Shown piece by piece: positions 11,056 to 15,977 of a stretch of DNA of 64,000 nucleotides. Below the pieces are notes generated by a model. It was given only the letters and a program-made list of their open reading frames with translations, was not told the origin of the DNA and did not search any database. Both the position numbers and the translations under genes were made by a program. The DNA is from Gulosibacter molinativorax. GTDB lineage: Bacteria; Actinomycetota; Actinomycetes; Actinomycetales; Microbacteriaceae. How positions within the stretch are numbered: the first letter of the stretch is position 1; each line of letters opens with the position of its first letter. The stretch is from contig NZ_CP028426.1 in assembly GCF_003010915.2 (NCBI RefSeq), forward strand, positions 1,364,001 through 1,428,000, read 5' to 3'.

Positions 11056-11707
11056 AATCAACGAAAACGACGACGTCCTGAGTGTGCCGAAGTCCGAGTC
11101 GCGTCGCCGGCCTCGCCGTGCCGACGGCGGGTCTGACGACAAGAAGCGTGGCCGTCGCCGCGACCGGAAGAAGGAGCAGCGCGAGGAGGATCGCGAAGAT
11201 CACGACGTGCTCGGCCGCGTCATGGAGGCCATCGCGCGCGCCATGGGGACGCCCGCGTTCCTCATCGGCCTGACGCTTTTCGTCGGCGGCTGGATCGCCT
11301 GGAACACGCTCGCGCCCGACGCGTGGCGCTTCGACTCCTCCGATCTCGGGTTCATCGCGCTGACCCTCGCGCTGTCGCTGCAGGCGTCGTACGCCGCGCC
11401 GATGCTGCTGCTCGCGCAGAACCGGCAGGATGACCGTGACCGCGTGCAGATCGAGCAGGACCGGCAGCGTTCCGAGCGAAACACCGCCGACCTCGAGTAT
11501 CTCAGCCGCGAGGTCGTTGCCCTGCGGATGCGCATGAACGACATGGCCTCGCAGGACTTCATTCGTGCCGAACTGCGCGCGCTCCTCGACGAGATGGACG
11601 AGCGCGCCGCCCTCTCGACGACCGCGGCGACGACTAAGCCCGCGGCGGGCGCCACTGCCGGTACCACAGCCAACCCCGAGAGCGAGACCGACGAACACCG
11701 TGCCTGA
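11048..11707 (+). CDS. DUF1003 membrane protein
   Basis: 219 residues. After a charged N-terminal 60 residues (RRRDRKKEQREEDREDHD) come two membrane helices (about 74-95 and 106-130) and a cytoplasmic coiled region (QNRQDDRDRVQIEQDRQRSERN), the usual DUF1003 layout. ATG at 11048 is chosen, five bases after GGGAGG; a GTG at 11042 is also possible. Its last eight bases overlap the Mrp start. Function unknown; probably linked to the CBS protein before it. Confidence 0.82.
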   Translation: MAEINENDDVLSVPKSESRRRPRRADGGSDDKKRGRRRDRKKEQREEDREDHDVLGRVMEAIARAMGTPAFLIGLTLFVGGWIAWNTLAPDAWRFDSSDLGFIALTLALSLQASYAAPMLLLAQNRQDDRDRVQIEQDRQRSERNTADLEYLSREVVALRMRMNDMASQDFIRAELRALLDEMDERAALSTTAATTKPAAGATAGTTANPESETDEHRA

Positions 11708-12812
11708 CCCCCGCATCCAGCGCATCCGCCAGGAACTCGGGCAGGTCATCGATCCCGAGCTGCGTCGCCCCATCACCGAGCTCGGGATGGTCGGCGAGAT
11801 TTCTGTGCCTGACAATGCGCCGATTCAGGTCGACATTAAGCTCACGATCGTGAGCTGCCCCCGAGCCGACGACATCGAGAAGGATGCGCGTGCCGCGGTT
11901 CGCCGCGCTGTCGGCGACGACCCTTACGTGGTTTCCGTGGGCGTGATGTCGCGCGAGGAGCGCCGCGCGCTCACCGAGCGACTGCGCGGCTCGAAGCCGA
12001 AGGAGCATCCGTTCGGCAAGGACTCCCTCACGCGCGTGATTGCAATCACGAGCGGCAAGGGTGGCGTCGGCAAGTCAACCGTGACCGCGAACCTCGCCGC
12101 GGCGATGGCCGCCGACGGGCTCGACGTCGGCGTCATCGACGCGGACGTGTTCGGTTTTTCGATCCCGTCGCTGCTCGGGATGGCGCCCGGCACGCAGCCG
12201 ACGCAGGTCGGCGAGATGATGCTGCCGCCGATCGCCCACGACGTGAAGGCCGTCTCGATCGGGATGTTTTTGCAGTCGCCAGATGAGATCGTCGCGTGGC
12301 GCGGGCCGATGCTGCATCGCACGCTCGAGCAGTTCCTCAAGGATGTGTACTTCGGCGAGCCGGACGTCCTCCTGCTCGATCTCCCACCTGGAACAGGCGA
12401 CGTCGCCCTGTCGCTTGGCCAGTTGTTGCCGCACAGCGAGGTGGTGGTGGTCACGACGCCGCAGCCCGCTGCCGCGGATGTCGCGTGGCGATCCGGGGCC
12501 GTCGCGAAGAAGACCGGTCAGCGCGTCGTGGGTGTGATTGAGACGATGTCGCCGGCGATCGGCCCAGACGGCACCGAGTTCGCGCTGTTCGGTTCGGGCG
12601 GTGGTGAGGAAGTGGCGCGCCGATTCGGCGTTCCGCTGCTCGGGAACGTGCCGCTCTCGGAACAACTGCGCAGCGACGGCGACGCCGGGACGCCGATCGT
12701 GCTCGCGCATCCTGACGACCCCGCCGCGGTCGCCCTTCGGGATGCAGCGCGCCGCCTGTACCAGCGCCCACGCGGGCTCGCGGGCAAGCCGCTCGGCGTC
12801 TCCGTGAACTAA
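11700..12812 (+). CDS. Mrp/NBP35-family P-loop ATPase, iron-sulfur carrier
   Basis: 370 residues: an N-terminal MIP18/DUF59 domain (about 5-90) and a MinD-like ATPase with the deviant Walker A SGKGGVGKST (about 118-127), DADVFGFSIPS and LLLDLPPGTGD. These proteins carry or transfer Fe-S clusters. The CxxC that bridges the cluster in many relatives is absent; around it the sequence reads GVIETMSPAIGPDGTEF, a pattern I associate with actinobacterial Mrp. GTG at 11700 overlaps the DUF1003 stop by eight bases; the longer upstream frame is a shadow of that gene. Confidence 0.88.
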   Translation: MPDPRIQRIRQELGQVIDPELRRPITELGMVGEISVPDNAPIQVDIKLTIVSCPRADDIEKDARAAVRRAVGDDPYVVSVGVMSREERRALTERLRGSKPKEHPFGKDSLTRVIAITSGKGGVGKSTVTANLAAAMAADGLDVGVIDADVFGFSIPSLLGMAPGTQPTQVGEMMLPPIAHDVKAVSIGMFLQSPDEIVAWRGPMLHRTLEQFLKDVYFGEPDVLLLDLPPGTGDVALSLGQLLPHSEVVVVTTPQPAAADVAWRSGAVAKKTGQRVVGVIETMSPAIGPDGTEFALFGSGGGEEVARRFGVPLLGNVPLSEQLRSDGDAGTPIVLAHPDDPAAVALRDAARRLYQRPRGLAGKPLGVSVN

Positions 12813-12847
12813 CCGCTTCTGCCGGGCTGGTGCCTTGGCGCCGTGGT

Positions 12848-12959
12848 GCCTTGGTGCCCGGGAGCCTTGGTGCCCTTGTGCCCTGACGCCCTGGACCCCT
12901 GGAGCCTTGGTGCCCGGGAGCCTTGGCGCCCTTGTGCCCTGACGCCCTGGACCCCTGGA
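12848..12959. repeat. 56-bp tandem repeat, two near-identical units
   Basis: Units 12848-12903 and 12904-12959 differ at one base (T at 12871, C at 12927). Each is built of shorter GCCTTGG/GTGCCC modules with a rough 9-10 base rhythm, and degenerate modules continue on both sides (about 12828-12990). It fills the first part of the 517-base gap after mrp. Read on the minus strand it gives a collagen-like open frame, which I do not regard as a gene. Confidence 0.8.
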
Positions 12960-13023
12960 GCACTTGTGCCCTAGCGCCCTGGCGCCCTAAAGCACCGCAA
13001 GGCTCAGCCGTGTCGCCCCGCCC

Positions 13024-13254
13024 GGCTTGAAATTTCAAGCCACCCACCCAGCCCGACTAGAAATTTCAAGCCACCCGCCCCGCCTGGCTTGAATTTTCAA
13101 GCCACGCAGAACCTGGTTTGAAACTTCCTGCCAGATAGTGTCCAGCGAGGTGATATCCCCTCGCTGGAGACTCCTCGGCCTGAAGTTTTAAGCCCTAGAA
13201 ATCACGGCTTGAAAATTCAAACCCGATCCAGGTCAGGGCTTAAACTTTCAAGCC
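13024..13254. repeat. Phased array of eight palindromes between mrp and tatB
   Basis: Seven 18-bp copies of GGCTTGAAATTTCAAGCC or close variants start at 13024, 13055, 13086, 13115, 13177, 13206 and 13237; the first is a perfect palindrome. An eighth, unrelated palindrome (TCCAGCGAGG and its complement, 13141-13168) sits where a copy would be expected. Centre-to-centre distances are 31, 31, 29, 31, 31, 29 and 31 bp. The 8-13 base spacers are not conserved. No ORF uses this stretch. It is not a CRISPR: repeats are too short, spacers too short and the repeats diverge. Role unknown. Confidence 0.9.
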
Positions 13255-13329
13255 GCGAAGGGTGGTTAAATGCGCGGCTCGGCGCCAGCCAAGTGCAACC
13301 GGGCGCTAGGAGAAATGTGTGGCCGGGCG

Positions 13330-13824
13330 CTAGGTGGCCTCGGAATCGAACGGAGCCTGGCCCGGGACCATCGGGGCCGTTTTCACCGTGCTTGTCGCCC
13401 ATGCTGGGGCCGATCCGCCAGCTACTGCGCCGGCGGCCATCGCAGCGCCGCCCACAGCCGTGCCTGCTATAGAAGCAGCCGAACCCACGCCCGCGCCAAC
13501 GCCACCAGCACCAGCACCAGCACCAGCACCAGCACCAGCGGCGACACTGCCACCCGGCCCAGCGTTTGGATCGGCATCGTTCCAGGCATCGCGGATGATG
13601 CGGCGCGGGTCGTACTGGCGTGGGTCGAGCTTGCGCCAGTCCTCGCTCGTGAAGTCGTCACCGAGTTCCTCCGACACGCGCGATTTTGCGTCTTCCGTCC
13701 AGGCACGGGCACGCTTGATCAGGTTCGCAAGTTGGGTTGCGAGCGTAGGGAGGCGCTCCGGTCCGAAAATGAAGACGGCAATGATTCCTATCAAAAGGAG
13801 TTTTTCGAAGGTAAGGCCGCCCAT
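13330..13824 (-). CDS. tatB: Twin-arginine translocase subunit TatB
   Basis: 164 residues: one N-terminal membrane helix with the TatA/B pattern (LTFEKLLLIGIIAVFIFGPERLP), an amphipathic helix (LATQLANLIKRARAWTEDAKSRVSEELG) and a flexible Ala/Gly tail with a GAGAGAGAG run encoded by a 6-bp repeat. TatB receives folded proteins with RR signal peptides at the membrane; one such substrate in the window is the Rieske protein at 37164-37643. ATG at 13824 is chosen so that MGGLTFEK follows the family. It is divergent from the O-methyltransferase, 22 bases apart. Confidence 0.88.
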   Translation of the reverse strand: MGGLTFEKLLLIGIIAVFIFGPERLPTLATQLANLIKRARAWTEDAKSRVSEELGDDFTSEDWRKLDPRQYDPRRIIRDAWNDADPNAGPGGSVAAGAGAGAGAGAGGVGAGVGSAASIAGTAVGGAAMAAGAVAGGSAPAWATSTVKTAPMVPGQAPFDSEAT

Positions 13825-13846
13825 GACTCCAGGGTAACCTGGTGGA

Positions 13847-14479
13847 ATGTCCGAATTCGAGTTGAGCATGCGCTTTACCGACGAACAAATCGTCGAGCAA
13901 CCCGCACAGCAGTCCGCTCGACGCTACGCTCTCGAGCTCGGTCTGCCAACAATCTCGCGGACCCTCGGGGCGCACCTCGCGTTCGTCGCCGCATCCACCC
14001 GTGCCGAGCGGATCATCGAGATCGGTTCAACCGGGGGCCTCACGACGACCTGGCTCCACCGCGGCGCGCCCAAGGCGACCATCACGTGCATCGACAACGA
14101 GCCCGAGCATCTCGCGCAGACTCGTCGCGCGCTGCTCGAGGCGGCGCATCCCGCGACCGCGATTCGCTGCATCTCTGGTGACCCGCACCGCGTGCTTCCC
14201 CGCATGAGCGAAGACACGTATGACCTCGTACTCATCACCGGTCCGCTGCAACACGTGTCGGCGCACTTGCAGCACGGGCTTCGCGTCGTGCGCCCGGGTG
14301 GAACGATCCTCGTACTCAATGCGCTGAACCAAGGTCGCGTCGCCGACCCTGCGCGTCGGGATGCGATCACCACGTCGCTTCGCCTCGTGATTCGCGAGTT
14401 TCAGCGGCAACCGGATCTCGTGACCTCCGTCATCCCGATCGACGGCGGGCTGCTGCAGGTCACCGCGCTACCGCAGTAG
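13847..14479 (+). CDS. SAM-dependent O-methyltransferase
   Basis: 210 residues with the class I methyltransferase site: IIEIGSTGGLTTTWL (motif I), TITCIDNEPEHL, SGDPHRVLP and DLVLITGPLQHVSAHL. It resembles the mycobacterial Rv1220c type that also neighbours tatB and mrp. The substrate is unknown. In many family members the motif after the metal aspartate reads D-x-x-K; here DLVLITG lacks the lysine, so dependence on a metal is uncertain. Confidence 0.8.
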   Translation: MSEFELSMRFTDEQIVEQPAQQSARRYALELGLPTISRTLGAHLAFVAASTRAERIIEIGSTGGLTTTWLHRGAPKATITCIDNEPEHLAQTRRALLEAAHPATAIRCISGDPHRVLPRMSEDTYDLVLITGPLQHVSAHLQHGLRVVRPGGTILVLNALNQGRVADPARRDAITTSLRLVIREFQRQPDLVTSVIPIDGGLLQVTALPQ

Positions 14480-15660: not shown

Positions 15661-15968
15661 TTGCCGGTAGCGCTCAACATGGCGGCAGGCGCATCGCATC
15701 ATTGCCGGTAACCCTCAGCATGTGCCGTACTCCGGCAGGGGTGAGCGCTACCGGCAAGGGCCGGCAAACGGCAGGTATCAGCGCAGCGGCAAGCTCATCC
15801 CATCAATGCCGGTAACGCCTAGCATGTGCGGTACTCCGGCAGGGGTGAACGCTACCGACAAGGGTTGTCAAGCGGCGCGCATCAGCGCAGCGGCAAGCTC
15901 ATCCCATCATTGCCAGTAACCCCCAGCATGTGCCGTACTCCGGCAGGGGTGAGCGCTACCGGCCAGGG
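15661..15968. repeat. 104-bp direct repeats, about 2.6 copies, each with an internal inverted repeat
   Basis: The segment TGCCGGTAAC...CTCATCC recurs with starts at 15703, 15807 and 15911, exactly 104 bases apart; the third is cut short near 15968. Within each unit TGCCGGTAACCCTCA pairs imperfectly with TGAGCGCTACCGGCA about 25 bases later, so each could fold into a long hairpin. A partial inverted copy lies at 15661-15680. This fills the 400-base gap between sodA and the convergent acyl-CoA synthetase gene. Confidence 0.85.
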
Positions 15969-15977
15969 CCCAGACAA

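Follow-up and report, generated by a model that had tools for sequence, protein, structure and literature searches.

A seven-copy intergenic composite element of Gulosibacter molinativorax with palindromes ordered symmetrically around a central stem: a possible dimer-binding platform

The DNA analysed here (the window, 64,000 nucleotides) corresponds to positions 1364001-1428000 of the first contig of the Gulosibacter molinativorax genome. This genome totals 3,502,671 bases, of which 3,465,658 belong to the first of its two contigs. For strain ON4T, the available extract of the published record gives contigs of 3,465,658 and 37,013 bp under CP028426 and CP028427, and strand-specific RNA-seq of the strain is described there as well (PMC9477822). 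Between an mrp-type ATPase gene, which has orthologues in all ten congeners, and a tatB-like gene lies an array of palindromes whose features are collected in Table 1. A preliminary description of this region had placed the array at 13024-13254 between convergent genes, and open reading frames and Pfam matches agree that both neighbours are transcribed towards it. The eight palindrome centres that it had listed, with spacings of 31, 31, 29, 31, 31, 29 and 31 bp, are all present in the sequence. It had further attributed a common core to seven of the sites; six of them match GGCTTGAAATTTCAAGCC at up to three mismatches, but the exact core occurs only at 13024-13041. The dyad centred on 13154.5 has another sequence and is the innermost part of a stem that comprises about 22 pairs. 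At the same threshold of three mismatches, none of 100 dinucleotide shuffles of the 64-kb window gave any match to GGCTTGAAATTTCAAGCC. Elsewhere in the window, a 104-bp tandem repeat in 2.8 copies (15682-15970) is located to the right of a gene that reads from its sequence as superoxide dismutase-like.

Table 1. Features of array A3 and its neighbours in the window, and short-period repeats at three other arrays
Feature	Coordinates	Strand	Remarks
mrp-type P-loop ATPase gene, left neighbour	11565..12812	+	reads towards array; Pfam PF10609 (NUBPL, named ParA), FeS_assembly_P
8-bp tandem repeat (CTGGTGCC), left flank of array A3; short-period repeat of A3	12827..12988	.	tandem-repeat scan
Dyad site -4	13024..13041	.	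exact GGCTTGAAATTTCAAGCC
Dyad site -3	13055..13072	.	2 mismatches to core
Dyad site -2	13086..13103	.	1 mismatch to core
Dyad site -1	13115..13132	.	4 mismatches to core, degenerate
Central stem around 13154.5	13131..13178	.	pairing conserved, compensatory changes over seven arrays
Innermost dyad of central stem, CGAGGTGATATCCCCTCG	13146-13163	.
Dyad site +1	13177..13194	.	3 mismatches to core
Dyad site +2	13206..13223	.	2 mismatches to core
Dyad site +3	13237..13254	.	2 mismatches to core
tatB-like gene, right neighbour	13330..13869	-	reads towards array; Pfam TatA_B_E
Short-period repeat of A2	L080:8255-8335
Short-period repeat of A4	L079:8928-9031
Short-period repeat of A6	L078:11661-11717

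At the genome level, seven intergenic arrays of one design are found in G. molinativorax, the array in the window being A3. The whole-genome core scan proposed in the preliminary description returned 34 matches at up to three mismatches, and all 34 lie inside arrays (A1b 4, A2 5, A3 6, A4 8, A5 2, A6 9, A1a 0), so that the dyad does not occur singly elsewhere in the genome; at this threshold no match was obtained on the 37-kb plasmid contig. This outcome fits the information content of the dyad, about 22 bits summed over both halves, which is enough for near-uniqueness in 3.5 Mb. A covariance model (R1), trained on the -2 to +2 portion of every array, recovered the same seven loci and none else (29 rows; 150 of 334 first-look candidates scored), the remaining rows being opposite-strand or shifted matches within these arrays; since the seven arrays are the training sequences of the model, only the absence of an eighth locus is informative. 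The arrays follow a common blueprint in which a central stem is flanked by 18-bp dyads at about ±31, ±60 and ±91 bp and then by further 31-bp steps. They differ in length, extending in site numbers from -4 to +3 in A3 and A5, -6 to +8 in A6, -11 to +6 in A4, -4 to +5 in A2, and -3 to +3 in both A1b and A1a.

The spacing of the sites was determined with a finder that looked for the next site 31 or 29 bp away, allowing deviations of up to 4 bp, a prior that affects only weak sites because most sites score 10 to 34 bits over a background mean of -27. The first sites are found at ±31 bp in nine of the eleven arms where they were detected independently and at 32 bp in both arms of A5, while three of the fourteen ±1 sites (A4 -1, A1b +1 and A1a +1) had below-threshold scores and were put at 31 bp by script. 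The step from ±1 to ±2 measures 29 bp in ten of the eleven independently found arms and 28 bp in the other one; counted from the three script-placed sites it is 28, 28 and 27 bp. Independently of the ±1 sites, all 14 arms have their ±2 site at a distance of 58-61 bp from the centre. The two 29-bp steps of A3 are thus not noise, as the ±2 sites are at this distance, and not at 62 bp, in all seven arrays. Outer steps are of 31 bp in 33 of 38 cases, of 30 bp in four and of 33 bp in one. Besides the three placed sites, scores below 10 bits were given by A5 -1 and -3, A4 -11, -9, -7, +4 and +6, and A1a -2, and A1a is weak at all its sites. In A4, decayed units continue in exact 31-bp register to about +14. 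The idea that about three helical turns between centres would bring all sites to the same face of the helix needs modification, as the shorter steps near the centre break a perfect arrangement.

The location of the arrays with respect to genes is varied. Four of the seven are found between convergent genes, namely A1b (rRNA methylase/treZ), A3 (mrp/tatB), A5 (glycerate kinase/HepT-like) and A6 (citrate synthase/TerC). A1a and A4 lie between co-directional genes, and A2 appears to lie between divergent genes if its right-hand open reading frame, with a phosphopantetheinyl-transferase match below the Pfam cut-off, is real. Ten neighbouring genes were assigned through Pfam, dinB, treZ, glycerate kinase and citrate synthase being names read from the sequence. 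A role as strict convergent-gene terminators was dropped given the three arrays in other settings. A reading in terms of origin and terminus, based on a large array very close to the midpoint of the contig and another near its end, was also abandoned, as dnaA is at 2.610 Mb; the nearest array is about 0.20 Mb away from it and the array positions have no plain tie to this locus. Between A1a and A1b there is a gene of the rRNA adenine dimethylase family (PF00398, L016:1287-2060), with relatives at 59-69% identity in five of ten congeners, beside treZ in one of these five. A5 is adjoined by a HepT-like RNase gene (PF01934, L081:9112-9576); HepT-like RNases are usually half of a toxin-antitoxin pair. 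In the congeners, long inverted repeats, each of different sequence, were seen by eye at the citrate synthase-TerC junction (L106, L107, L108 and L110) and at the mrp-tatB junction (L029). These inverted repeats between convergent genes are probably bidirectional terminators.

Conservation within the sites was evaluated in a set of 67 sites, which covers the three script-placed ones and a stray low-scoring A1b match (index -6). Conservation of half-sites is highest at ±2, with 0.64-0.71 mismatches of 8, followed by ±3 (0.93-1.07), and sites -1 and +1 are the weakest over all arrays. An A occupies position 7 in 64 and position 8 in 59 of the 67 sites, and a T occupies position 11 in 53 and position 12 in 66. 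This pattern, together with A-rich inner spacers, which are common, and a period near three turns, would be expected if AAATTT-like centres in a genome of 64% G+C acted by bending DNA or by loading a nucleoid protein as AT islands, Lsr2, HU and IHF being candidate general nucleoid proteins for such a role. The G+C ends of the sites (G 0.95, G 0.91 and C 0.84 per half-site), however, are kept about as strongly as the inner positions, beyond what curvature or AT content requires, and we regard this explanation as very improbable.

The spacers are conserved differently from the sites that they separate. Identity across arrays is 0.56 for the -2/-1 spacer, 0.50 for -1/0, 0.42 for 0/+1 and 0.45 for +1/+2, whereas the outer spacers are only 0.37 and 0.28 identical, close to random 13-mers (0.26) and to spacers of other index (0.33). 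Sites ±3 are nonetheless 0.72 and 0.75 identical across arrays. The inner module thus retains the marks of common descent from one element, and the outer dyads and their distances have outlived their spacers. Selection on the dyads and their phasing, which the preliminary description had suspected and which seems to hold, is argued mainly from this retention of outer dyads and distances between near-random outer spacers. Its companion claim, that spacers vary freely, is true of the outer spacers across arrays but not quite accurate for A3, whose left arm begins with three units in 31-bp tandem repetition (84% matches, 13016-13105) that have related spacers. Parts of A2, A4 and A6 are likewise 31-bp tandem duplications with related spacers, and because of this visible duplication the argument for selection is weaker in these three arrays and in the left arm of A3.

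A further question is whether the dyads are maintained through sequence or through pairing. Over the 67 flanking sites, 399 Watson-Crick pairs are formed between halves compared with 404.7 (sd 6.0) in 2000 half shuffles, with 14 compensated pairs compared with 14.5 in shuffled halves, and the 42 sites within ±3 give 251 Watson-Crick pairs compared with 261.0 (sd 4.7). Covariation of stem and dyads was evaluated in an alignment of positions -3 to +3 with A5 turned. In dyads ±2 and ±3, both sides change in one of 28 pairs (1.6 in shuffles) and the covariation score is below the shuffled mean. In the central stem, both sides change in 13 of 22 pairs compared with 8.7 in shuffles (7 of 500 as high), and 75.2% of cells are paired compared with 66.6 (sd 2.4). 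Its covariation of 0.340, compared with 0.221 (sd 0.035), was equalled by one of 500 shuffles, slid versions of the stem reaching at most 0.147, and stem offsets 9-22, one of eight bins, gave p 0.0032 in a separate permutation test. These covariation statistics come from seven related paralogues, a small set of the kind about which the tool warns, yet centre and flanks clearly differ when compared in one alignment. The proposal of a chain of RNA hairpins is consequently at odds with the flanking dyads, whose halves change independently, but it captures the central dyad, which behaves like a hairpin or cruciform stem. Since the flanking dyads lack covariation and keep a spacing near 31 bp, binding as double-stranded DNA is favoured for them over RNA hairpins, while the hairpin-like behaviour of the central stem makes an RNA or cruciform role conceivable for part of the element. 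A single giant hairpin over both arms was rejected, as the mirror spacers ±1/±2 are unpaired (own pairing 0.26 against 0.30 for cross pairing). Left and right ±2 sites are more alike within an array than across arrays (0.68 vs 0.51, p 0.029 uncorrected), a likeness that might count weakly against full independence of the arms.

These data also bear on the possibility that the whole element works as RNA, either as transcribed hairpin chains or as an element between genes that would terminate or attenuate transcription in both directions, chiefly at the central stem. The covariation of this stem, a folding far better than that of shuffles on both strands (z -9.5 and -10.8), the four convergent settings and the inverted repeats seen by eye at the same junctions in several congeners would all be in line with such a role. 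It would leave unexplained the lack of covariation in the flanking dyads and the three arrays outside convergent settings, A2 apparently between divergent genes, and the 6 to 17 extra dyads would be needless for a terminator. Moreover, no Rfam match above the gathering score was obtained for window positions 12500-13700, two miRNA rows being far below it, and no promoter-like site was detected, next to three terminator-like matches against 0.8 (sd 1.0) expected. Taken as an account of the entire element, this explanation is improbable.

Among the genomes searched, the element is present in this species only. The core at up to two mismatches is absent from all ten congeners, and a core search over 60 genomes, the own genome included, gave matches only in the latter and, as a lone site, in the family genome G020. 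This match and lone ones in three viral contigs were taken as chance, being single sites without array neighbours. With R1, nothing was found in 298 other genomes of the family and 395 other genomes of the order (overlapping draws), using stricter filters and scoring the best 10 or 7 first-look candidates per genome, limits under which the model still recovers the seven arrays of its own genome. No blastn match to window positions 12990-13290 was obtained among 50,697 phage records or 72,556 plasmid records. A two-site pattern retrieved 20 stretches from the contig collection, none of which is an array; only stretch L101 has two core-like sites (up to six mismatches) 27-34 bp apart, and it was set aside as the pattern match itself. 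In these stretches R1 gave one weak match, in L099 (16.3 bits, E 0.0093), which was attributed to chance. Neither a version with scrambled spacing nor any other version of the element was seen in the relatives searched. The existence of a genome-wide class of phased palindromes was also considered, and dropped after 27 sources (about 0.55 Mb), comprising the window together with control stretches and flanking DNA, had been scanned. The strict setting produced 27 rows, which lie in A3, A4, A6 and three other places (L134, L136 and L078:4327), compared with 4 in triplet-shuffled sequence, and it is not a sensitive one, since it misses A1, A2 and A5. A loose setting was uninformative (260 rows compared with 104 in shuffled sequence), and a still stricter one returned nothing, known arrays included.

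Other tandem repeats are present in the genome. CTGG-rich short-period repeats with units of 5-15 bp lie to the left of A3, A2, A4 and A6, four of the seven arrays (Table 1). A control of 400 kb, searched for periods of 4, 5, 7, 8, 10 and 11 in at least four copies, contained three 5-bp repeats and one overlapping 10-bp row. At L146:8188-8432 (chromosome about 3158187-3158431), an unrelated array of 31-bp direct repeats (GGTCACGTTTCGGGG) ends on an inverted repeat and is followed by repeats of about 71 bp with an inverted repeat of their own. At L147:12939-13233, a short tandem repeat of CGCTG type precedes three 32-bp repeats (GGTGGTACTCAAGCGGAATCAGCTG), a layout that resembles the one at the arrays.

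The main rival of a protein-binding function is a selfish or passive repeat, that is, a minisatellite-like or miniature mobile element without host function, which would have been dispersed and then enlarged through tandem duplication in 31-bp units, its spacing being a relic of duplication. Its presence in this species only looks like insertion: the mrp-tatB gap measures 517 bp here vs 7-93 bp in ten congeners, the citrate synthase-TerC gap 657 bp vs 38-252 bp in seven, and the methylase-treZ gap 406 bp vs 70 bp in one. The genes that flank A4 and A5 are not conserved together at the congeners' loci. A repeat of this kind would fit with the kinship of adjacent units in A2, A4, A6 and the left half of A3, with the short tandem repeats next to four of the seven arrays, with the polarity shared by six arrays, to which A5 is inverted (leave-one-out scoring), and with the presence in the same genome of direct repeats that have a period of 31-32 bp but an unrelated sequence. 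Simple duplication accounts poorly, however, for ±3 sites and distances that are kept between outer spacers near random across arrays, and for the mirror-symmetric place of the ±2 sites, which recurs in every arm. No Y1 transposase gene was found in the genome, in a search limited to the Y1 family, which also counts against this rival. On balance, a selfish repeat is a serious but somewhat unlikely explanation.

Altogether, the region is considered one copy of a seven-copy intergenic composite element that would most likely serve as a dimer-binding platform around a stem, a tentative reading to which we assign a probability of roughly 0.47 from the sequence comparisons. A platform around a hairpin or cruciform centre is the best single account because it accommodates both the operator-type conservation of the half-sites and the stem-type conservation of the centre. 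In the proposed mechanism, the central stem would be maintained as an inverted repeat between symmetric arms of 18-bp dyads with the half-site GGCTTGAA, and a DNA-binding protein with sequence specificity would most likely occupy each flanking dyad as a symmetric dimer. At a repeat length of 31 bp, or about three helical turns, neighbouring dimers could touch and bind cooperatively, and a C2-symmetric nucleoprotein assembly would grow outward from the centre at seven loci only. Its service might be insulation or termination between genes, silencing, or anchoring of the chromosome. The decayed tail of A4 in 31-bp register counts against the platform, as it implies that exact spacing can outlast intact dyads. 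The 31-bp tandem duplications, the poor ±1 sites, the weakness of A1a and the restriction to a single species also speak against it. A bolder version, unlikely as it stands, would see a mirror-symmetric scaffold of a new category, in which a pairing-conserved hairpin or cruciform centre would nucleate a dedicated protein whose dimers line both arms at 31-bp intervals. With essentially only these seven targets, this protein would anchor, insulate or silence the chromosome at a handful of points in one species. The interest of the element lies in a strictly ordered, symmetric multi-site design at seven loci that joins a centre conserved as a stem with arms conserved as operators. Should one protein bind the arrays, they would offer a compact natural model for nucleating and limiting an oligomer on DNA; if they are a selfish repeat, such order would have arisen in one species without a Y1 transposase in its genome.

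No description of such a symmetric multi-site element was retrieved in a literature search, and several known systems share part of its features. CRISPR arrays consist of near-identical repeats separated by spacers of about 25-40 bp. The element likewise alternates short palindromes with spacers that differ, but the 18-bp sites are not identical, the spacers measure about 10-14 bp, and no cas gene was found among the ten neighbouring genes checked. BOX/RUP-type repeats of streptococci are intergenic and composite, with a variable number of inner modules, and lack mirror symmetry about a stem. The element resembles them in being intergenic and composite with a variable inner module, and differs in sequence and phylum. 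Plasmid iteron arrays and partition centromeres place helically spaced sites around a centre, as here, but use direct repeats instead of palindromes; none of the ten neighbouring genes checked is a rep or partition gene, although the Pfam family of the Mrp ATPase bears the name ParA. Chromosomal parS/ParB or Noc-type sites are palindromes at few dispersed loci, bound by a dimer that can spread. The arrays are also found at few dispersed loci and their palindromes are of similar length, whereas they form ordered series of fixed spacing with a central stem and do not cluster at the origin. We take the dyad sequence to be neither a parS nor a Noc site.

The closest known kind are BIMEs made of REP/PU palindromes. 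In the available extract of a study of these repeats, BIMEs or REPs are stated to bind IHF, gyrase and Pol I (PMC2817692). Like the element, they are described there as intergenic, dispersed and regularly spaced palindromes with a variable number of units (PMC2817692). Unlike usual REPs, which amount to more than 100 copies and also occur singly and in pairs, the units of G. molinativorax are confined to seven loci, where one central stem of other sequence is placed between mirror-symmetric arms and the flanking dyads are kept by sequence, not by pairing. A gene of the Y1/RAYT family (PF01797) had no match in the own genome, compared with matches in 5 of 14 control genomes. Because neither REP-like copies outside the arrays nor a Y1-type transposase gene was detected, the element is not classed as a BIME; by analogy, it may nevertheless work like one as a protein-binding repeat.
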